From positions 1 to 41,652 of the forward strand of contig PLZV01000021.1 of the NCBI GenBank assembly GCA_003152315.1: DNA of 41,652 nucleotides. The letters are read 5' to 3'. Positions 1-9,334 of the stretch are shown here, piece after piece; position 1 is the stretch's first letter; the number at the start of each line of letters is the position of its first letter. Under the pieces are notes generated by a model. The model saw only the letters and a list, made by a program, of their open reading frames with translations, ran no database searches and had not been told where the DNA came from. This DNA is from Verrucomicrobiota bacterium (GTDB lineage: Bacteria > Verrucomicrobiota > Verrucomicrobiia > Palsa-1439). The translations under genes were made by a program, and so were the position numbers.

Positions 1-563
1 CGCGTCAGTTGTTCGCGCCCGCGTTCGGCCGTGATGACGGCGGTCACGCCCTTGTCCTTGAGCCAGCGGAAGAGCCGGCGCAACTCGGCGCGCAGGATGG
101 CCTCGTTGCGCAGGCCGGCGAACAGCGCTTCAATCGTATCCAGGACCACGCGCTTGGCGCCGATGGAATCAATCGCATGATTGAGCCGGACGAACAACCC
201 TTCCAGGTCATACTCGCCGCTCTCGTGGATTTCACTGGGCTCGACGTGGACGTAGTCGAGCATGATTTTTTTGCGCCGGACCAGGCCCGCCAAATCAAAT
301 CCGAGCGACGCGACGTTGGCCTTCAACTCCGCTTCCGTCTCCTCGAAGGTCATGAACACGCCCGGCTCGCCGAACTGCACCGCGCCGCGCACGAGGAATT
401 CCGCGGCCAACAGCGTCTTGCCGCACCCCGCGCCGCCGCAGACCAGCGTGGGCCGCCCCCGCGGCAACCCGCCGTCGGTAATTTCGTCGAGACCCTGGAT
501 GCCCGTCGGACACTTGGGCAAACGAGCCGTTGGAGAGGTGGATTTGGAGCCGTCTGTTTTCAT
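1..563 (-). CDS. KaiC-type RecA-like ATPase, N-terminal 187 residues (runs off left edge)
   Basis: Reading minus from an ATG at 563, the frame is open to the window edge. It opens MKTDGSKSTSPTARLPKCPT and continues GIQGLDEITDGGLPRG, the usual N-terminus of a KaiC/RadA-type P-loop domain. The Walker A is GGAGCGKT (about residues 43-50), the acidic pair after the second strand is FMTFEET, and the Walker B strand is RVVLDTIEALF. KaiC-family proteins are ATP-driven hexameric switches that pair with kinases or phosphatases. Whether one or two ATPase domains exist cannot be seen. The start lies 44 bp after the upstream kinase stop, and a 13-codon ORF (MKRITALLKDALE) ends over the ATG, which suggests translational coupling. 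It is the third gene of the minus-strand operon from 2471. Confidence 0.88.
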   Translation of the reverse strand, partial: MKTDGSKSTSPTARLPKCPTGIQGLDEITDGGLPRGRPTLVCGGAGCGKTLLAAEFLVRGAVQFGEPGVFMTFEETEAELKANVASLGFDLAGLVRRKKIMLDYVHVEPSEIHESGEYDLEGLFVRLNHAIDSIGAKRVVLDTIEALFAGLRNEAILRAELRRLFRWLKDKGVTAVITAERGREQLT

Positions 564-606
564 TCAAGAGCATCCTTCAGCAGGGCAGTGATGCGTTTCA
601 TAAATA

Positions 607-1740
607 CTAGGTCCCCTTGCCGTTCGTGAACGGAATCTGCGCCCGGATGGTCGTGCCTTTGCCGGGCGCGGATTCGACCCGAAAGCTGCCCCCGACCATC
701 TCCACACGTTCGCGCATGCCAAGCAACCCCAATCGCTTGTTTTTCCTGGCATTCAACATTCGATCCACCTGAAAGGACTTGCCGTCGTCCTTGATCTTCA
801 TGCAAATACTGTGCGGAAGTTTCTCGATGCTCACGTCCACCAGGCTGGCTTGCGCGTGGCGGGCGACATTGGTGAGCGCTTCCTGGGCGACGCGATACAG
901 CACCGTGCGCTTGTCGCCAGCCAGTTTTTCAACCGCCGCAAATACCGTCAAATGAATGTGGATGCCGGTCCGTTTCGCAAGGCTTTTCACGAAGGAATGA
1001 AGGGCGGGAATCAGTCCCAGGTCGTCCAATACTGTCGGACGCAATTCCCGCGCAAACCGATGCACAATGTCCACCGACTTTTCGACCATCCGTTGCGTGC
1101 GGGCGATCTTTTTCTGGAGGCCTTTGACATTGGTCGTGGCCTCCGTTTTAAGTGTCGCCAGTTGGACATTGATGCCGGTCAAGGTCTGCGCGATTTCATC
1201 ATGCAGCTCGCGGCTGATCTTCTTGCGTTCTTCCTCCTGCGCCAACAGGAGCTGGCGGGTCAGGTACCGCAATTGTTCCTGCATGTCCCACGACTGCACC
1301 AACAACTGGTTGTAGTGTCGCTCGCTTTTCCGGAGGGATTCCTCCACGTCCTTCCGCTGGAGGATTTCCCGTTTCAACTGCCGGTTCGAGACTGTCAGAT
1401 CCTCGCTGCGCTGGCATAACCTCTGGTTGAGTCGACCGAAGTGGGCGTTGGCTTCCCGTGCGGTGCGATGAGTTTTCTCGATCGGGGTGATGGCCTCGGC
1501 AAAAAAATTCCCCGCCCGCCGAACCATCGAATCCCGGGTGCCGGGGGAATCGCTCGGCAACACCAGGGCAATCAACGCTTGCTCGTGAATCCGGGCCAGG
1601 TCCAGCGTCTCCAGCCCGTAAGTCATGGCCCGCCGTCCCAGCCCCTGCGCCGGTTGCAAGCTCGCTCGCGGACCTTTCTTCAAGTAGCTCCGCAACGCCG
1701 CCACATAGCGTCGCGACAACCCGGTCAATGTACGTGTCAT
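607..1740 (-). CDS. Sensor histidine kinase, HisKA_3/HATPase type, with RsbU_N-like N-terminus
   Basis: This is a 377-residue cytoplasmic kinase with no membrane segment. Residues 1-110 are helical (LGRRAMTYGLETLDLARIHE, then FFAEAITPIEKTHRTAREAN) and resemble the N-terminal module of RsbU-type phosphatases and similar KaiC-linked kinases. A coiled coil follows. The DHp segment has the NarL-partner H-box KISRELHDEIAQTLTGIN (His near residue 195). The ATPase domain has the N-box VAQEALTNVARHA, DDG, and GLLGMRERVEMVGG. The expected partner is a NarL/FixJ-type regulator, but none is encoded in the window. It lies 11 bp after its kinase-less paralogue and 44 bp before kaiC, so it probably works with both. 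Confidence 0.92.
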   Translation of the reverse strand: MTRTLTGLSRRYVAALRSYLKKGPRASLQPAQGLGRRAMTYGLETLDLARIHEQALIALVLPSDSPGTRDSMVRRAGNFFAEAITPIEKTHRTAREANAHFGRLNQRLCQRSEDLTVSNRQLKREILQRKDVEESLRKSERHYNQLLVQSWDMQEQLRYLTRQLLLAQEEERKKISRELHDEIAQTLTGINVQLATLKTEATTNVKGLQKKIARTQRMVEKSVDIVHRFARELRPTVLDDLGLIPALHSFVKSLAKRTGIHIHLTVFAAVEKLAGDKRTVLYRVAQEALTNVARHAQASLVDVSIEKLPHSICMKIKDDGKSFQVDRMLNARKNKRLGLLGMRERVEMVGGSFRVESAPGKGTTIRAQIPFTNGKGT

Positions 1741-1751
1741 GCTATTCGCCG

Positions 1752-2471
1752 TTACGTGTCATGCTCTTTGCCGAGTTCATCAACGAACCGACCCAAAGTT
1801 TTCTTGGATTTTTCCACAAGGCGTTGCGTGTTGGCGATCTCTTTCTTGAGGCCTTTGCTATCGACCGTGCCCTCCTGTTTCAACGCCAACAGTCGCACAT
1901 TGATTCCCAACAATGTCTGGGCGATTTCATCATGCAACTCGCGGCTGATCTTCTTGCGCGTATCCTCCTGCGCCAACAGATTCTGATGGGTCAGTTCTCG
2001 TAAATGCTCCTGCACGAGACGCGATTGCTTCAGCAAATTGGTACGATGTTTCTTGCTTTTCTTAAGGGCCTCCTCCGCGGCCTTGCGCTGGACGATTCCC
2101 CGTTTCAAGTGGCGGCCAGAGGCGGCCAGTTCCACCGTGCGTCGGCCCAGTGTCTTCGTTAGTCGACTCAGGTCACCGCTGGTCTCCCGCGCGGCACGAT
2201 GAGTCGTTTCGATCGGGGTGACGGCCTCTACAAAAAAGATTCCCGCCCGCTTGATCGTCCCATTCTTGGTACTGGAGGAATGGCTTGGCAACAACAGTCT
2301 TGCGAGGGCGATCTCGTGAATCCGGGCCAGGTCCAGCGTCTCCAGCCCGAGGTCCATGGCTTTGCGTCCCAGGCCGCGCGCCGGCTGCAGGCTGGCTCGA
2401 CGCCCTAGCTTTAAATGTTTACGCAGGGCCGTCACATACTCTCGCGACAATCTGGTCAACTTGGTTTCCAT
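1752..2471 (-). CDS. Histidine-kinase-like protein lacking the ATPase domain (paralogue of the next gene)
   Basis: This 239-residue protein aligns along its whole length with the first ~240 residues of the kinase at 607-1740. Shared parts are the RsbU_N-like module (LGRKAMDLGLETLDLARIHE, FFVEAVTPIETTHRAARE), the coiled coil and the H-box KISRELHDEIAQTLLGIN with its histidine. It stops just after the second DHp helix (QRLVEKSKKTLGRFVDELGK) and has no N, G1 or G2 boxes, so it cannot bind ATP as a classical kinase. The stop falls inside a 13-bp direct repeat shared with the start of the next gene. It could heterodimerise with the full kinase or be trans-phosphorylated. It is the first gene of the operon and has the 22-bp upstream element about 60 bp before its ATG. 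Confidence 0.85.
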   Translation of the reverse strand: METKLTRLSREYVTALRKHLKLGRRASLQPARGLGRKAMDLGLETLDLARIHEIALARLLLPSHSSSTKNGTIKRAGIFFVEAVTPIETTHRAARETSGDLSRLTKTLGRRTVELAASGRHLKRGIVQRKAAEEALKKSKKHRTNLLKQSRLVQEHLRELTHQNLLAQEDTRKKISRELHDEIAQTLLGINVRLLALKQEGTVDSKGLKKEIANTQRLVEKSKKTLGRFVDELGKEHDT

Positions 2472-2530
2472 AGTCTATGCCGAATCCGTTGACATTAACC
2501 TGTGTAACCATCTGATAATTGCTGCAAGCC

Positions 2531-2552
2531 GTCTATGGGGTAATACCCTACC
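2531..2552 (-). promoter_or_regulatory. 22-bp shared upstream element, copy 3 (before the kinase/KaiC operon)
   Basis: On the minus strand it reads GGTAGGGT, then ATTACC, then CCATAGAC, and contains the near-palindrome GGGTATTACCC. It matches copies at 3631-3652 and 5834-5855 at 19 of 22 positions or slightly fewer. It ends about 60 bp before the ATG at 2471. It could be an activator site (for example for a NarL-type regulator) or an alternative sigma factor promoter. The role is inferred. Confidence 0.5.
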
Positions 2553-2595
2553 CAATTGCCCGGTTCATCCACTCCCGGCGGCTGGGTCATGGCCG

Positions 2596-3495
2596 TCAGC
2601 GCAAACGGAGTGTCGGGGTGCCATCGAGGCGTTTGGATAAATCGATGGGATCACCAACGGAAACTTCCTCGGGATTCACCTGATAAGCCCAGATTTCAAA
2701 GTGCGTGAGCTTGGCCTCGCCGTAGATGGTCCCAAACGCGCCATCCACGGCATCCAAACCGTGGGCCACCTTGACGCGCCCGATGCGCGGGACATTGTAG
2801 CGTGGGTCAAACGTGAACCACTCCTGCCCCAGGTAGACTTCACAATAGCCATGGAAATCCATCGGCACGCCCGAATCGACGTACGCAATGTCCGGCAAGT
2901 GGCCCGTCACGTAGCGGGCGGGCAGATTAAAGGCGCGGCACAAAGCAATGGCCACATGCGCGAAGTCGCGACAGACGCCGTAACGCCGTTCGATCACTTC
3001 CGACGCCGAAAGGTCCGTGCGCCCGGGACCGAAGCGGTATTCGATGTTGGTGTGGATCCAATCGCAGATGGCCTGCACCCGCGGGAGACCGTGGGGGATC
3101 GGCCCGAAAATATTCCAGGCGAAATTCAGCAGTTTATCGGAATCGCAATAGCGGCTGGGTAACGTGTAGCGCAATAACTCCGTAGGCAGTTGTGCCACCG
3201 GCACGGCGTCCACCGCTCCCTCGCGGTTATCGGACAAAGAAGAAACGGCGCCCAGGGCGTCATGACGAATGTCGTTGCGCCCTGGCATGAGCATTGAGCG
3301 ACAGGTGATGTTGCCGTAAGAATCCTGGAATTCGTAGGACGGGAGACCGATCCCGAACGAGAGTTTCTCCTGGTACACGAGAACCTTGCCTTCGAGTCGC
3401 GGTTTCAGCACGAAAAACGCCGGGGTCGGCACCGAGGTTTCATAGGTTATATGGCAGCCGACTCGGACGGTAAGATTCAGGGGGGCCCAGTTCAT
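2596..3495 (-). CDS. Transglutaminase-like (papain-fold) protein
   Basis: A 299-residue protein with an N-terminal beta-rich region (about 1-140) and a transglutaminase core. The catalytic cysteine is in ERRYGVCRDFAHVAIALCRA. The histidine is in MDFHGYCEVYLGQEWFTFDPR, whose terminal Asp completes the Cys-His-Asp triad. It ends in a short tail with the motif GDPIDLSKRLDGTP. Proteins of this family act as cysteine peptidases or transamidases on unknown substrates. There is no signal peptide, so it is probably cytoplasmic. It has its own start at 3495 and lies upstream of the kinase operon on the same strand, with 124 bp between them. The specific substrate cannot be told. Confidence 0.88.
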   Translation of the reverse strand: MNWAPLNLTVRVGCHITYETSVPTPAFFVLKPRLEGKVLVYQEKLSFGIGLPSYEFQDSYGNITCRSMLMPGRNDIRHDALGAVSSLSDNREGAVDAVPVAQLPTELLRYTLPSRYCDSDKLLNFAWNIFGPIPHGLPRVQAICDWIHTNIEYRFGPGRTDLSASEVIERRYGVCRDFAHVAIALCRAFNLPARYVTGHLPDIAYVDSGVPMDFHGYCEVYLGQEWFTFDPRYNVPRIGRVKVAHGLDAVDGAFGTIYGEAKLTHFEIWAYQVNPEEVSVGDPIDLSKRLDGTPTLRLR

Positions 3496-3630
3496 GAGTC
3501 GTTGTTTGGGTCAATTCTTCAGAATCGCCCCGCTGTCATTTGGTCAACGTCCGCTTCATCATTACATTGTATGACAAATCTTCGCGCTCACAACAAGGCG
3601 TTCAACGTTGTTGTACCGGCCAGAATCCCT

Positions 3631-3652
3631 GGTAGGGTTTTGCCCCATAGCC
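3631..3652 (+). promoter_or_regulatory. 22-bp shared upstream element, copy 1 (before the DUF948/YtxH operon)
   Basis: It reads GGTAGGGT, TTTGCC, CCATAGCC. It lies 120 bp before the ATG at 3773 and matches copy 2 at 19 of 22 positions. It sits in the 277-bp gap between the divergent transglutaminase-like gene and the DUF948 gene. Confidence 0.5.
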
Positions 3653-3772
3653 GCGAACCAACCCAGGCCGTACCGTGCTGGCAATGATGGACATAAGAGT
3701 GGTCTCTGCGGTAAAGAGCCATAATTCGTTGCGGCGTGAGGGCCGAAGGTTTAAATTTACGCGAGGAGCTAT

Positions 3773-4207
3773 ATGATAATGTCTACTGCATTACAAGTGG
3801 CCTTGTTCGTCGCATCCGTCGCTTTCACCGTCCTGGTTATCTGCCTCATTCCCATCGTCTTTCAGGCGCGGCGCAAGGTGGAGCAACTGGTGATCACCGC
3901 CGGTGAATTGAAGGAAAAACTTCAGGCTCTCGTGGAGGACAGCCATGAGATGGTGCGGAACGTAACCGAACTCTCGACGCGGGCCAACCAGCAACTGGAC
4001 GAAGTGAGCCGCGTGGTACAGACCACGCGCCAATGGGCCGAGCGGGCCGACCGGCTCGTGAACGAGGTCGGATCGGCCATTGAGCCGCCGGTGCATTCGT
4101 TGGTTCGGAACATGAACCTCTTCCGCACCGGGATCGCCACCTTTCTGCAGTTTTTATCACACCGAAATCAGCACAACCAAACAACGAAGGAGTCAGATCA
4201 TGTCTGA
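3773..4207 (+). CDS. DUF948-like membrane-anchored coiled-coil protein
   Basis: A 144-residue protein with one N-terminal membrane helix (about residues 6-29, ALQVALFVASVAFTVLVICL). A long amphipathic coiled coil (VEQLVITAGELKEKLQALVE through RADRLVNEVG) follows, as in DUF948 general-stress proteins. GAGGAG lies 5 bases before the chosen ATG. The last 8 bases overlap the start of the YtxH gene, so the two are translationally coupled. The pair probably forms an envelope-associated stress complex, which is inferred from the family only. Copy 1 of the 22-bp element lies upstream. Confidence 0.82.
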   Translation: MIMSTALQVALFVASVAFTVLVICLIPIVFQARRKVEQLVITAGELKEKLQALVEDSHEMVRNVTELSTRANQQLDEVSRVVQTTRQWAERADRLVNEVGSAIEPPVHSLVRNMNLFRTGIATFLQFLSHRNQHNQTTKESDHV

Positions 4208-4481
4208 AAACAATTCATGCCCGGTAGGTGGTTTATTGACGGCGTTTGCCGTGGGTGCTCTCGCCGGGGCGACAATTGCCCTGCTTTACGCGCCGCGATC
4301 GGGCGAGGAGACACGAAAGTTGATCGCCGCCAAAGGCAAGGAACTTAAGGGCAAAGCGCACGACGCCATCGAGGATGCCAAGGACTTCATTGACGGGAAG
4401 AAAGCGGAAATCGCCGCCGCTGTCGAAGCCGGCAAAGAAGCCATGCGCGAAGAGCGGGCCAAACATCAGAAGAACGCGTAG
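4200..4481 (+). CDS. YtxH-like general stress protein
   Basis: A 93-residue protein with a glycine-rich hydrophobic N-terminal segment (GGLLTAFAVGALAGATIALLYAPRSGEETR). This is the hallmark of the YtxH family, including the LLYAPRSG(E)ET motif. A charged Lys/Ala/Glu-rich helix follows (KGKELKGKAHDAIEDAKDFI). AAGGAG lies 7 bases before the ATG, within the end of the DUF948 gene. In Bacillus, YtxH is part of the general stress regulon. DUF948 and YtxH commonly travel together, so the pairing supports both calls. Confidence 0.9.
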   Translation: MSENNSCPVGGLLTAFAVGALAGATIALLYAPRSGEETRKLIAAKGKELKGKAHDAIEDAKDFIDGKKAEIAAAVEAGKEAMREERAKHQKNA

Positions 4482-4557
4482 TCGTTTCGCCGTTGGTTGC
4501 GAGTCGACGGATTGTACTGCGTCAGGCTGACCAACCGCCAGCCTTAAAGGGGCCCAA

Positions 4558-5367
4558 ATGCAAATGACCGTGAACAATGTCACCATTGGTTACACGGACG
4601 AAGGGCGCGGTGTGCCGTTGCTCTTCGTGCATGGGTTTCCACTCAGTCGGGGCGCCTGGCAGAAGCAAATCGATACGCTCCGTTCATCCTATCGGGTCAT
4701 CGCACCCGATCTGCGTGGATTCGGTGAAAGCGAGACCGGGACGGGTCCGGTCACGATGGCGCAGTACGCCGACGATCTTCACGTATTGCTCCCACAACTC
4801 AAGACGGGACCCGTAGTGTTGATCGGCCATTCCATGGGTGGTTACGTGTCGTTCGCCTTCCTGCGTCAATATCCCGAGATGGTCCGCGGCCTCATATTGG
4901 TCAGCACCAAGGCGGGCAAGGACACCCCCGAAGCCGCCGCCGGGCGGCGCGCGACGGCTGAGAAAGTGCAAGCGATGGGTGTCCCGGTCGTTATTGAGAC
5001 GATGGCGCCCAAGATGCTCGCGGCGGACAATCACGATCGGGCCATGGCGGAAGAGGTGCGCGGATTCATGGCGCCATCCAAACCCGCGGGAGTGATCGGC
5101 GCCTTGCTCGGGATGGCGGAACGACCCGATGCGACGGCAGAATTGGCCCGGATTTCCGTGCCGACCCTGGTCATCACCGGCGCGGACGATACGCTGATTT
5201 CACCGACGGAATCGGAAAAACTGGCGCAGGCGATTCCAGGCAGCCAGTTGAATATCATCCCGCAAGCAGGTCATCTCGTCGCCTTCGAACAGCCGGACAA
5301 ATTCAATCACGTGCTCGAAGGGTGGTTGGATCGTGCGGCCTTTGCCGTCCCCGTCAGCGACTTGTGA
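4558..5367 (+). CDS. Alpha/beta-fold hydrolase
   Basis: A 269-residue hydrolase with the complete fold and catalytic set. The oxyanion strand is PLLFVHGFPLSRGAW, the nucleophile elbow is LIGHSMGGY (Ser about residue 93), the acid is in VITGADDTLI, and the base is His in IPQAGHLVAFEQP. It resembles the 3-oxoadipate enol-lactonase/carboxylesterase branch, but substrate cannot be assigned. AAAGGGG lies 5-6 bases before the first ATG; a second ATG two codons later is possible. It follows the YtxH gene by 76 bp and may be co-transcribed. There is no signal peptide, so it is cytoplasmic. Confidence 0.9.
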   Translation: MQMTVNNVTIGYTDEGRGVPLLFVHGFPLSRGAWQKQIDTLRSSYRVIAPDLRGFGESETGTGPVTMAQYADDLHVLLPQLKTGPVVLIGHSMGGYVSFAFLRQYPEMVRGLILVSTKAGKDTPEAAAGRRATAEKVQAMGVPVVIETMAPKMLAADNHDRAMAEEVRGFMAPSKPAGVIGALLGMAERPDATAELARISVPTLVITGADDTLISPTESEKLAQAIPGSQLNIIPQAGHLVAFEQPDKFNHVLEGWLDRAAFAVPVSDL

Positions 5368-5504
5368 TGGCCGGACCCTCGGCTGTCGAACTCGCTCCGC
5401 CCTGCTGCGTTGACCACGCTTTCGAAGTGCGCCTTCAATCATTCAAGGCAGGATTTTGTCTATACAAAGGGGACGGCACACGGCTCACACTCAGGTGAGC
5501 AAAT

Positions 5505-5744
5505 TTGCGGACAAACCATCTCAGATTCAAAAAATCGCATTTCTCACAGATTACCAAGCCGCGCAAGTGGGGCATCGGCGAGAAATCGGGCGCCCTGGTG
5601 TGGCGGGGTGATTTCGTTGCCGCACCGATGTTGGCCTTTGCCAGGGGAGTTGACCGGATCGTGTACGGCTCGATCCTGCTTCAGGAGGTCAAGAAAGTGG
5701 TCCGCTGCTTTCAAGATGACTTGAAGGCGAAACCGCTCCGCTAA
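5505..5744 (+). CDS. Unrecognised short ORF or gene remnant in a 553-bp gap
   Basis: The gap 5368-5920 between the hydrolase and the BON gene holds one frame with coding-like third-position GC from about 5560: KWGIGEKSGALVWRGDFVAA through IVYGSILLQEVKKVVRCFQD, ending at 5744. The only start in frame is TTG at 5505, without a clear ribosome binding site. The first 20 codons look non-coding. I do not recognise the product. It may be the 3' end of a decayed gene. The rest of the gap shows only the 22-bp element at 5834. Confidence 0.3.
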   Translation: MRTNHLRFKKSHFSQITKPRKWGIGEKSGALVWRGDFVAAPMLAFARGVDRIVYGSILLQEVKKVVRCFQDDLKAKPLR

Positions 5745-5833
5745 GACACAAGCCTCTGCGCGCTCGCCCGCCCGTCTGGCTGAATTGACCTGCTGGCGCG
5801 GGCACCTTTCAGCAACCCTTTCCAGCCACACAC

Positions 5834-5855
5834 GGTAGGGTTCTGCCTTATAGCC
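5834..5855 (+). promoter_or_regulatory. 22-bp shared upstream element, copy 2 (before the BON gene)
   Basis: It reads GGTAGGGT, TCTGCC, TTATAGCC. It ends 65 bp before the ATG at 5921, a distance close to that of copy 3 to its gene. Only three positions differ from copy 1. Confidence 0.5.
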
Positions 5856-5920
5856 CGTGGCTCGCTAACCGCGTAGCTTGCCTTCAACGAAAAGACGTAC
5901 CAACAGAAAGGTGTTTAAGT

Positions 5921-6730
5921 ATGAGGAAAGTTATTAAGACAAACTACTCACTGGCGCTTGTTATGGCTGCGGGGGTTCTGGCATTCACCGCCGTGCTGGT
6001 GTTCACCAGTGGGCCCGTGCGCGCGTCCCAGACGGATGACCGCATCGAATCATCGTTCAAGAAGACCTACATGTATAAGACGTATCTGAAGGACGAACAT
6101 ATCAAAATCAGCGCCAAGGATGGAGTCGTCACCTTGTCGGGCGCCGTGGCCGATGAAACCCACAAGCCGATGGCCCAGAACGTCGCCGAAGCATTGCCTG
6201 GCGTTACGAGCGTGGACAATCAGATCACCGTCAAAGGCGAACAGCCCGCCGAGAGCTCAGATACGTGGATTAGCATGAAAGTGAAATCCGCGCTCTTGTT
6301 CCATCGCAATGTGAGCGCCTCTGCCACGGAAGTTTACCTGAAAGACGGTAATGTCACGTTGAAAGGCGAAGCCGCCACTGACGCCCAAAAGGAACTCACC
6401 ACCGAGTACGCCAAGGATGTCGACGGCGTTAAAAGCGTGAAGAACGAGATGACGGTGGCGACGACTCCGGCGAAGCCCGATGAAACATTCGGCAAAAAAA
6501 TCGATGACGCGTCCATCACGGCCGAGGTCAAAGGATCGTTGCTGTCGCACCATTCAACCAGTGTACTCAATACCAAGGTCTCGACGACCGAAGGCATAGT
6601 CACGTTGGGTGGCACGGCCAAGAACGACGCCGAGAAGGCCCTGGTAACCAAGCTCGTCACGGACATTAACGGTGTGAAGAGCGTGGTCAACAACATGACC
6701 ATTGAAGCAACCGTATCCAATAACAAGTAG
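5921..6730 (+). CDS. Exported protein with three BON domains
   Basis: A 269-residue protein with a signal peptide or anchor (about residues 8-36, hydrophobic, ending VRASQ) and three successive BON domains at roughly 38-105, 113-178 and 195-262. Each has the pattern of an amphipathic helix, V-x-G-x-V-T-L-G/K-G, and a closing G-V-x-S-V-x-N-x-(M/I)-T: VVTLSGAV...GVTSVDNQITV, NVTLKGEA...GVKSVKNEMTV and IVTLGGTA...GVKSVVNNMTI. BON proteins (OsmY-like) sit in the periplasm, bind phospholipid and protect the envelope under stress. AAAGG lies 7 bases upstream. Copy 2 of the shared element suggests control in common with the KaiC and DUF948 operons. Confidence 0.93.
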   Translation: MRKVIKTNYSLALVMAAGVLAFTAVLVFTSGPVRASQTDDRIESSFKKTYMYKTYLKDEHIKISAKDGVVTLSGAVADETHKPMAQNVAEALPGVTSVDNQITVKGEQPAESSDTWISMKVKSALLFHRNVSASATEVYLKDGNVTLKGEAATDAQKELTTEYAKDVDGVKSVKNEMTVATTPAKPDETFGKKIDDASITAEVKGSLLSHHSTSVLNTKVSTTEGIVTLGGTAKNDAEKALVTKLVTDINGVKSVVNNMTIEATVSNNK

Positions 6731-6817
6731 GTATCAACTCATTGCCGGCTGGCGCGGAGGCATGTGGGGACTGCGCCAGTCGGTAGTGAATCCAAATCAA
6801 ACCCAAAGGAGAATCCC

Positions 6818-6967
6818 ATGTTGTACACAATCGCGGTAGTACTCGTTGTCCTATGGCTGCTGGGACTGGTGACCAGTTACACGATGGGCGGGTTTATTCA
6901 CGTCCTGTTGGTGATTGCCGTCATCATGATCCTGGTCAACATCATTCAGGGTCGACGACCGGTGTAA
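6818..6967 (+). CDS. Short hydrophobic protein, lmo0937-like
   Basis: A 49-residue protein, almost entirely two membrane helices (TIAVVLVVLWLLGLVTSYTM and FIHVLLVIAVIMILVNIIQG) with a short basic tail GRRPV. The ATG at 6818 has AAAGGAGA 6 bases upstream, so it was chosen over the longer frame starting at 6764. Size and pattern match the lmo0937 family of small stress-associated membrane proteins, which often sit beside BON, YtxH and CsbD genes. It lies 87 bp after the BON gene and 38 bp before the next small membrane protein, probably in one transcript. Confidence 0.8.
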   Translation: MLYTIAVVLVVLWLLGLVTSYTMGGFIHVLLVIAVIMILVNIIQGRRPV

Positions 6968-7005
6968 GAGGCAGTTAACCGAAGAACGGAAACTGGAGGT
7001 TCGAA

Positions 7006-7218
7006 ATGAATTCAAAAACGATTGCAGCCATACTGATCGCACTGGGCATTGTAGTGCTCGCCTACTCGGGCATCACTTACAAGACCCCGGGAAAACCCGT
7101 CGATTTCTTCGGAGTGCACATCGAGACCACCCGCAGCCACTTCATCCCCCCGGTCGCCGGTGCGCTCGCGCTGGCCGGCGGGCTCGTGTTGCTTGTCGCC
7201 GGTCCCAAAAACGCCTGA
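7006..7218 (+). CDS. Small two-helix membrane protein, DUF3185-like
   Basis: A 70-residue protein. The N-terminal helix TIAAILIALGIVVLAYSGIT is followed by a short extracytoplasmic loop (YKTPGKPVDFFGVHIETTRS) and a second helix (PVAGALALAGGLVLLVAGPK). The pattern matches DUF3185-like small membrane proteins. GGAGG lies 6-8 bases before the ATG. It is probably the last gene of the BON transcript. No function is known. Confidence 0.78.
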   Translation: MNSKTIAAILIALGIVVLAYSGITYKTPGKPVDFFGVHIETTRSHFIPPVAGALALAGGLVLLVAGPKNA

Positions 7219-7522
7219 GTCAGTTTCGCGATGGCCGATTGGGCGGACGTCATCAACCGCACTACTGCGGTTGTGGCGTTCGCCCCGATCCGCGGCGGAT
7301 CCTGCCTTCTACCATCTGAAACTTGGGCGGCGAACGGTCAAGCAGCCCTGCCGTGACGGGCGACAGAAGAAATTCTTTGCGAAACAATTAGGTTATTTCT
7401 TAACCAGGCGTATGATTATGTTGGTCTCAGCGAGCTGCTTCTCTCCGACCAAACCTCGCGGCACTGCGGCGCAGCAAGGCAGCACAGTGAAATATCAACC
7501 AGTGCTGTCACGGGAGATTTCT
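7219..7522. other. 304-bp gap without a convincing gene
   Basis: A frame running from 7160 through this gap into the next gene is an artefact of the late start at 7523. The only visible structure is a short inverted repeat GGTTA-N5-TAACC near 7390. No terminator or promoter is clear. Confidence 0.4.
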
Positions 7523-7918
7523 ATGACAATGAACAAGTTCAGCGGAGAGAAATTCGGCCAGTTCTGCAGCAAACAGTATGAACTCGCCTGTGCGTTGTTG
7601 GATTGCGAGGCCTTCCAGTCCTGGCACACGCCGTCACGGGATGAGTGGAATGCGGTGCTCGCCTCGATAAAGAAGATGGTGAAACAGTACGATTGGCCGT
7701 TGTATGAAGTCACCCGCGATGGCGACGACGCGTCATCCACCTCCACCATGAATACTGGTCTCCTGTTGAATGCCATTCATAAACTGCTGGGTGTATTTGA
7801 TGGTTACGATGTGAGATCCTTGCCGTCCCCGGGTCAGTGGGGTGACATCATGCGGGTTGTGGATGAAACCACCGAGCGTCGCGCCGTGGTTGACCAGGCG
7901 GCGAAACCCCAACTCTGA
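7523..7918 (+). CDS. Unrecognised 131-residue cytoplasmic protein
   Basis: The ATG at 7523 has CGGGAGA upstream at good spacing and opens MTMNKFSGEKFGQFCSKQYE. The protein is soluble, mixed alpha-helical, with two Cys near the N-terminus (FGQFCSKQYELACALLDCEA, third Cys included) and a Trp-rich middle (WHTPSRDEWNAVLA, YDWPLYEV). No family is recognised. It follows the stress-type genes and precedes another small unknown by 56 bp, so the two may be co-transcribed. Confidence 0.65.
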   Translation: MTMNKFSGEKFGQFCSKQYELACALLDCEAFQSWHTPSRDEWNAVLASIKKMVKQYDWPLYEVTRDGDDASSTSTMNTGLLLNAIHKLLGVFDGYDVRSLPSPGQWGDIMRVVDETTERRAVVDQAAKPQL

Positions 7919-7974
7919 CGACTTATCCGAACCAGACCGACCCGAGAGGAAAAGGCCCGACCGAAAGGAATCGA

Positions 7975-8175
7975 ATGATCAAAGAACCCAATGTCACCGA
8001 AACCACGTTCCGTTTCACCACCATCGGCGGAAGCTTCCTCATTCAGCGAATTGCTGAGATCGAAAAACTGGCACTGAACAATCTGCAAAGCGGGAAATCA
8101 CTCGACCGCGTAGTCACCGAAGCATTGGTGTCGATGAAAGATGCCTGTCGGGATGCACGGGCCAGCGTAGCGTAG
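7975..8175 (+). CDS. Unrecognised 66-residue small protein
   Basis: The ATG at 7975 is preceded by AAAGGAATCG, a good ribosome binding site. The protein is MIKEPNVTETTFRFTTIGGS..., soluble, with a C-terminal helix (LDRVVTEALVSMKDACRDAR). Codon use matches the neighbours. The C-terminal part loosely resembles the IDRAIAKRKTIDEVFLEIG segment of the small ORF at 11361 (hydrophobic pattern only). No function can be given. Confidence 0.6.
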   Translation: MIKEPNVTETTFRFTTIGGSFLIQRIAEIEKLALNNLQSGKSLDRVVTEALVSMKDACRDARASVA

Positions 8176-8224
8176 GTATCGGCGCGCTTCGCCGTCCCAA
8201 ACCGACATCCCATGCCTTGGTAGC

Positions 8225-8265
8225 GAATGCTGGCTGCCTCACCAGCCGTCGGCAAGCCGGCATCC
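8225..8265. repeat. Imperfect inverted repeat between convergent genes (possible bidirectional terminator or REP-like unit)
   Basis: GAATGCTGGCTGCC (8225-8238) and GGCAAGCCGGCATCC (8251-8265) pair over about 13 of 15 positions around a 12-base loop. It lies between the plus-strand gene ending at 8175 and the minus-strand methyltransferase ending at 8276. No T-run follows on either side, so a REP-like dispersed repeat is as likely as a terminator. Confidence 0.4.
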
Positions 8266-8275
8266 CGATAGAGTT

Positions 8276-9334
8276 TCAGTGACCGCCGACATCCACGAGC
8301 TTCCGCCCCCAAAGAATCAAAATATCATCCAACAATCTGTCCCTCTTGGGTCGGGTGAGCACCTCGAAGCCTGTTTGCTCAAGATATCGACCGAGGGTCT
8401 CGCCCGTGTACAAAAAGGTATGATATCCATGACGGAATCCATTCCAGCCCGATTTGTGCCGGCGATAGGCCGGGCCGCCGAACTTGGGAGTTTTCATGAC
8501 GACCACGCCACCGGGTCGCAGAATGTGATTTACCTTCTTAAGAAATGCCAGGGGACTCTGAACGTGTTCGATAACGGAATCCATCAGTACCATATCGAAA
8601 GACTGAGGCTCGATCGGTGCCTCTTCGAACGAGGACTCGATGACCTCAAACCCCTTTTCCCGGGCTTCCGCTGCGGCAATCGGAGAGGGCTCGAGCCCCA
8701 CGCACTGGTAAAAGCGCGACGCCAAGGTCAGCAACGTTCCGGTGCCACAGCCGACGTCCAGATAACGCCCGGAAGGGACGACTTTATGGGTGTCTCGGAC
8801 AAGACGGGACGCGGTACTGCCCAGGGTGCGGCGGATCATCTTCGTGCGGATTCGCTTGAACCACATGTTGCGTCGGGGTCGCTTCCGCTTGGTGGACCAC
8901 CACTCACCCTGATCCGGTAACTGGTCTCGGGTCGGAACGGGACGCAAAAAAATGAGTCCGCATTCGCACTTCCAGATGGTAAGAGGAATCGTAGCCGGAT
9001 TCCAACTGTCTCCCACTTCCCAGGTGTGGAGCAGCGAAAATGACCGGCTACCGCACAGGTCACATCCACCTTCATCACTGGCAGGGCCACTGACGAGCCG
9101 GTCCTGTGGCCTCAAAATGGTTTTCCCGAAATCCCCAGGTCGCTTCAAGTTCTGGTAATCTCCATCAGCTGGTTGGGGGCGAGTATAGACTCGTCGGGTC
9201 GGCTTTGCACCGGCAAACGCCAATAAAATTCGATCCTGACAGTTTGCCGCTTCGCAAAGCCAATGGCGAAGGCCCTGCCGCACTTGCAATCCTTGCATCA
9301 AGGCGTATGTTGCAAGTGAGAGTCGAGCAACCAT
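8276..9334 (-). CDS. Zn-ribbon class I SAM-dependent methyltransferase
   Basis: The clear core runs from a four-Cys ribbon (GCDLCGSRSF ... WKCECGLIFLRP) to the methyltransferase fold. Motif I is RYLDVGCGTGTLLTLA, the acidic strand 2 end is CVGLEPSP, motif IV is FDMVLMDSVIEHV, and motif VI is LRPGGVVVMKTPKFGG. This is the class that methylates small molecules or sugars in surface polysaccharide and secondary-metabolite loci; the substrate is unknown. The start is uncertain. The frame stays open to a TTG at 9442, ATG at 9334 is used here, and a TTG at 9148 with GGAG upstream would also keep all domains. A start beyond about 9318 would overlap the putative RNA on the other strand. Confidence 0.82.
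   Translation of the reverse strand: MVARLSLATYALMQGLQVRQGLRHWLCEAANCQDRILLAFAGAKPTRRVYTRPQPADGDYQNLKRPGDFGKTILRPQDRLVSGPASDEGGCDLCGSRSFSLLHTWEVGDSWNPATIPLTIWKCECGLIFLRPVPTRDQLPDQGEWWSTKRKRPRRNMWFKRIRTKMIRRTLGSTASRLVRDTHKVVPSGRYLDVGCGTGTLLTLASRFYQCVGLEPSPIAAAEAREKGFEVIESSFEEAPIEPQSFDMVLMDSVIEHVQSPLAFLKKVNHILRPGGVVVMKTPKFGGPAYRRHKSGWNGFRHGYHTFLYTGETLGRYLEQTGFEVLTRPKRDRLLDDILILWGRKLVDVGGH
9284..9311 (+). promoter_or_regulatory. Sigma-70-like promoter of the repeated leader element, copy A
   Basis: TTGCAA (9284-9289), a 16-base spacer and TATGTT (9306-9311), followed after 6 bases by GAGAGTCGAG. Copies B (9996) and C (11306) have the same boxes, the same 16-base spacing and the same leader word. 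Confidence 0.5.

Follow-up and report, generated by a model that had tools for sequence, protein, structure and literature searches.

We found that a short palindromic element, present in three copies in a Verrucomicrobiota contig, recurs throughout the genome and is conserved in related bacteria, stands at a fixed spacing from −10 boxes, lies upstream of stress genes, and is tied by its presence as well as by its location to a response regulator (RR) of the NarL/FixJ family. At a rough probability of 0.8, the sequence evidence points to the element being the operator of a general stress regulon, driven by the operon-encoded RR through class II activation. The literature that we searched contained no description of this regulon, and to our knowledge no general stress response has been described for Verrucomicrobiota and their relatives; the system looks like a stress regulon that is widely conserved in the PVC group and has so far gone undescribed. 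Its parts are of known kinds; the novelty lies in their combination, which joins RsbU_N kinases and a NarL-type regulator to a class II operator and general-stress targets. The regulator, the operator sequence, the promoter layout and the list of targets are all open to direct testing. For a largely uncultured group the system also supplies a stress marker that can be read from genomes, and its operon puts a KaiC/KaiB module alongside a stress regulator outside cyanobacteria.

The window analysed here is the whole 41,652-nt stretch, positions 1–41652 of contig C3 of genome G000 (4.89 Mb, 62 contigs). It contains the following features:

1–563 (−), N-terminal part of a KaiC-like ATPase, cut by the contig end; family assigned from a full-length relative in L099
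607–1740 (−), K1, histidine kinase with the domain order RsbU_N, HisKA_3, HATPase_c
1752–2471 (−), K2, HisKA_3 and RsbU_N-like, opens the signalling operon; a HATPase domain was not found
2507–2512, GATGGT, weak −10 candidate of copy 1
2535–2551 (−), operator copy 1, GTAGGGTATTACCCCAT, 63 bp before the start of kinase K2
3632–3648 (+), operator copy 2, GTAGGGTTTTGCCCCAT, 124 bp before DUF948
3671–3676 (+), TACCGT, −10-like box of copy 2, 20 nt after CATAG
3773–4207 (+), DUF948 protein, target of copy 2
4200–4481 (+), YtxH protein, one transcription unit with DUF948, judged by position
5835–5851 (+), operator copy 3, GTAGGGTTCTGCCTTAT, 69 bp before BON
5874–5879 (+), TAGCTT, −10-like box of copy 3, 20 nt after TATAG
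5921–6730 (+), triple-BON protein (OsmY-like), target of copy 3

The first-pass annotation had placed three near-identical elements 60–120 bp before the starts of a kinase/KaiC operon, a DUF948–YtxH unit and a BON gene, each oriented towards its gene. This was borne out by three exact matches of the pattern GGTAGGGTNNTNCCNNATAG in the window, at 2533–2552 (−), 3631–3650 (+) and 5834–5853 (+), and no further window site was found at one to three mismatches. All three copies point at the genes named, the measured distances from operator end to start codon being 63, 124 and 69 bp, and a Pfam domain scan confirmed the HisKA_3 kinases, DUF948, YtxH and BON. Shuffled versions of the window gave a mean of 0.39 matches, even with three mismatches allowed; since the pattern was written from the three window sites, this comparison is not independent evidence, which comes from outside the window. 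The partial palindrome GGGT-N3-ACCC is real, and the core proposed with it was kept as an element and refined in its wording, being better written GTAGGGTTWYACCCCATRG. A 17-bp operator, GTAGGGT-N4-CCCCAT, is common to all three copies; it is an imperfect palindrome (TnGGGT-N3-ACCCnA) and is followed by RG in most copies outside the window; the right half of copy 3, GCCTTAT, is a degenerate member of the motif. The copy 1 operator is conserved before the equivalent operon in genomes G001 and G002, the copy 2 operator before DUF948–YtxH in G002 (L088), and the variant seen in copy 3 also precedes BON in G002.

A genome-wide motif scan, proposed with the original observation, showed that the element recurs across G000 and is nearly absent in the reversed control. 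At up to one mismatch, 25 operator copies were found compared with 0 for the reversed pattern, a count that may include near-duplicates or contamination (3.29%), since the genome has a number of regulator paralogues and some short contigs that resemble each other in content; with the −10 box included in the pattern and up to two mismatches, the scan gave 24 sites compared with 1. The two grounds named beforehand for rejecting shared control, random placement within genes and start sites unrelated to the element, found no support: the element precedes genes and keeps a fixed distance to the −10 box. The three copies are thus a real element, recurrent genome-wide and conserved. Operator copies were present in at least 13 families of the class to which the window genome belongs, as well as in other Verrucomicrobiota, Kiritimatiellae, Lentisphaerae and some Planctomycetes. 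An exact scan of GTDB species genomes for the operator together with the −10 box returned at least 109 matching stretches. Among the matches listed, nearly all were from Verrucomicrobiota, Kiritimatiellae, Lentisphaerae or other PVC records, the record names of some metagenome bins (e.g. 'Akkermansia muciniphila') being unreliable; a few were from Planctomycetota, and single matches in other phyla may be due to chance or misbinning. No Rfam match indicating an RNA element was found in window positions 1–9000, and a sigma54 promoter was rejected on the GG–GC spacing read from the sequence, which is N9 in the copies where N10 is required. Two overlapping operators, 15 bp apart, were observed before BON in G020 (L099, ~6572–6603) and G013 (L383, 176–207).

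The signalling operon carries the operator in front in G001, G002, G277 and G280. In G001 and G002 this operon ends in a gene for a NarL-type RR, in line with the suggestion that a NarL-type regulator would carry the element at its own promoter; the ECF sigma factor proposed as the other candidate is not needed, given a sigma70-like −10 box and an operator placed where activators bind. The gene order in G013 is K2–K1–KaiC–KaiB–KaiB–PAS kinase–RR, and G020 has the identical order split over two contigs. Contig C3 of G000 breaks off within KaiC, and the end of C49 carries the remaining KaiC, KaiB, KaiB, PAS kinase and RR; we infer that the two contigs join, with ~60 residues missing between them. 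The likeness to Kai systems lies in KaiC and two KaiB-like genes, which are located inside the operon in several genomes and absent from many kinase–RR carriers. Because they are missing from many operons, KaiC/KaiB are predicted to be accessory to the kinase–RR pair, not essential. The likeness to the RsbT/RsbU partner switch and to RsbU_N histidine kinases lies in the RsbU_N domain of K1, which scored 28.6 bits, above the Pfam cut-off of 25.5, K2 falling below it at 21.7. Unlike in the RsbT/RsbU stressosome, signalling here ends in a NarL-type regulator that has a defined regulon, and of 14 carrier genomes searched, 13, including G000, yielded no RsbR scaffold (RsbRD_N, PF14361). A stressosome input was rejected on this absence.

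The RR orthologues match GerE (PF00196), combining a receiver with a GerE-type helix-turn-helix (HTH), and the closest solved structures over both domains are VraR (5hev), DesR (4ldz) and NarL (1a04). K1 is a HisKA_3 kinase, as a partner of such a regulator would be, and its relatives precede the RR gene in most genomes examined. A receiver with a LuxR-type HTH is likewise found in the NarL/FixJ regulators VraR, DesR, NarL, DevR/DosR and RcsB. Regulators of this family bind inverted repeats, and we know of no NarL/FixJ-family operator that GTAGGGT-N4-CCCCAT matches. Unlike those systems, the one described here has broad general-stress targets and shares its operon with RsbU_N kinases and KaiC/KaiB.

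To relate the operator to the RR, nine RR orthologues were aligned and the profile was searched against 286 genomes of the class. Two groups of scores emerged, a high one and a lower one made up of paralogues. With an RR+ threshold chosen after the scores were seen, and with counts and E-values copied by hand, the mean number of operators per genome was 3.67 in RR+ and 0.38 in RR− genomes, and four or more operators were present in 17 of 52 RR+ compared with 4 of 234 RR− genomes (p = 8e-11). As related genomes are not independent, the labels were permuted within families, with two genomes of family f28 that have partial RR matches omitted; this gave P = 1e-5, and the difference had the expected direction in every one of the 13 families that include both states (13/13). 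Linkage was examined in 41 neighbourhoods (507 kb) chosen by the RR gene regardless of the motif, in which 29 operators were observed compared with 0.41 expected and 0 for the reversed pattern. Conversely, an RR orthologue was found in 12 of the 109 loci chosen by motif, among the matches listed. The first-pass annotation had proposed shared control of the KaiC operon and the envelope-stress genes; this is supported, as RR presence tracks the element and the RR gene stands at the end of the kinase operon. Nine RR− genomes contained at least three operators. One RR− carrier (G179) has a partial RR match, and the operator-bearing G026 has just two LuxR-type proteins, neither of them the RR orthologue; incomplete assemblies account for at most part of the RR− carriers. 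Eighteen of the 52 RR+ genomes had no operator at one mismatch, and in family f12 the operator sequence looks diverged. Paralogues of the RR are present in G000 on contigs C4, C11, C45, C49 and C53 (L137, L143, L139, L142 and L138, respectively), one of which is an open frame of 98 residues with the HTH end only, reflecting either paralogue expansion or assembly contamination.

The targets and the RR come and go together, so any other protein of the package would correlate with the operator as well, and the element could then be the activator operator of another transcription factor that co-occurs with the RR. The operator-bearing genomes lacking an RR orthologue would suit such a factor, as would a second HK/RR pair and a protein with only a LuxR-type HTH that lie near sites in some genomes. 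We nevertheless regard it as unlikely: the RR orthologue is the DNA-binding protein repeatedly found beside operators, its C-terminal DNA-binding domain is, like the operator, strongly conserved across families, and the second HK/RR pair has close relatives in operator-free genomes. This conserved pair, located near sites in G001 and G020, was rejected as the regulator since its close relatives also occur in operator-poor genomes. A second conserved HK with a NarL-type partner was seen near the stress cluster in two families (L089:1039–3064 and L093:12501–14527), with a weak operator before the G020 pair. The LuxR-type HTH protein without a receiver is encoded at L091:9466–9906, in an operator cluster of G029, ~900 bp after an operator.

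The promoter architecture was examined using 76 distinct exact operators, chosen by the operator alone. A TAnnnT hexamer started exactly 20 nt past the 19-bp motif in 36 of the 76 and at 21 nt in another 8, compared with a mean of 0.27 per position at other offsets. With the hexamer placed at −12 to −7, the centre of the dyad falls at about −43. The expected place of the −35 element is occupied by the right half of the operator, and the promoter profile contains no good match to TTGACA. Class II activators bind around −42, with a constant distance to the −10 box, and the predicted layout is that of a class II activator-dependent promoter used by the housekeeping (sigma70-type) sigma factor, the geometry pointing to activation. 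The only −10 candidate of the kinase operon, GATGGT at copy 1, is poor. The median distance from operator to start codon was 87 bp. A weakly conserved GGSCCRGCCC-like stretch was observed between operator and −10 at many sites (profile positions 25–33).

The targets resemble sigma-controlled general stress regulons, and many sites have in common part of the spacer and a GCGTAGCGT-like −10 region, as would be expected if the promoters were read by an alternative sigma factor, ECF-like or of the general stress type, whose −35 element was GTAGGGT or CCCCAT. The spacing makes this quite unlikely. The −35 and −10 elements of a promoter are ~16–18 nt apart, whereas CCCCAT lies 22 nt and GTAGGGT more than 30 nt from the −10 box, too far for a −35/−10 pair. 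In addition, the −10 box fits the housekeeping TAnnnT, and the element is palindromic and tracks a DNA-binding response regulator; both the spacing and the −10 box fit an operator plus a sigma70 −10. A repressor could act where the operator overlaps the −35 region, but the fixed 20–21 nt to the −10 box and the lack of a good −35 hexamer fit required activation, and we hold a repressor site to be very improbable. Chance or repeat-derived similarity of the three copies, which the resemblance among some site-bearing G000 contigs might suggest, is refuted by conservation across many families with unrelated flanks, the near-zero reversed-pattern counts and the fixed −10 spacing, and its probability is negligible.

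For activation by the operon-encoded RR, we infer RR binding, the activation itself, the pairing of K1 with the RR, the input signal and any role of KaiC/KaiB. The HisKA_3 kinases of the K2–K1–(KaiC–KaiB–KaiB–PAS kinase)–RR operon, probably K1, would phosphorylate the RR, a dimer of which would bind GTAGGGT-N4-CCCCAT centred at about −43, as dyad symmetry, co-occurrence and linkage suggest. The bound RR would activate RNA polymerase containing the housekeeping sigma factor at −10 promoters without a good −35 element, as in class II activation, and stress-protection genes would be switched on as its targets. Since the signalling operon that includes the RR gene itself bears the identical operator, the system would be autoregulated. 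More tentatively, much of the PVC group might possess a general stress response without a dedicated sigma factor, in which RsbU_N kinases feed one NarL-type regulator that turns on tens of stress genes through the class II operator and amplifies its own operon, with a KaiC/KaiB module tuning or timing the signal in many lineages.

The predicted targets were collected by taking, for each site, the best open reading frame that lay no more than 300 bp downstream, and 141 of these genes were scanned against Pfam, revealing BON (26), ice-binding (7), CsbD (6), HisKA_3 (5), dodecin (4), ferritin/Dps (4), PRC-barrel (4), OsmC (3), DUF3309 (3) and DUF5670 (3) families, with YtxH also among the downstream stress genes. 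In the opposite direction (107 proteins), BON, CsbD, dodecin, ferritin, PRC, OsmC, DUF3309 and DUF5670 were absent from the 25 of 66 families listed, many of them single-member, single matches to the missing families being possible beyond those 25. HisKA_3 (6) and ice-binding (3) were present among the families listed on that side, because kinase operons and some targets lie divergently. The downstream genes form a general-stress set of the kind controlled in sigma B, RpoS and EcfG responses. CsbD, YtxH, OsmC, OsmY/BON and Dps, by which the targets overlap with those of sigma B (Bacillus), RpoS (enterobacteria) and PhyR–EcfG (alphaproteobacteria), are established members of these regulons; the known systems act through an alternative sigma factor, whereas an RR at sigma70-type promoters is predicted here. 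The BON orthologue has an operator close upstream in most RR+ copies, and the single BON orthologue of one RR− genome (G007) is without one. Among the RR+ genomes tested, 10 contained the triple-BON target, as did 1 RR− genome. The CsbD genes of the RR+ genomes G046 and G170 have no operator nearby. Three operators on G000 contigs C19, C24 and C38 (L008, L009 and L014) precede similar short frames resembling the start of an OsmC-like gene, which are possibly decayed copies with retained promoters. In Akkermansiaceae bins (L236, L262), a very large gene resembling those for polyketide or fatty-acid synthases follows the element. Secreted proteins of the ice-binding-like type recur among the targets and are sometimes arranged as divergent pairs (L098, L228, L260, L283).
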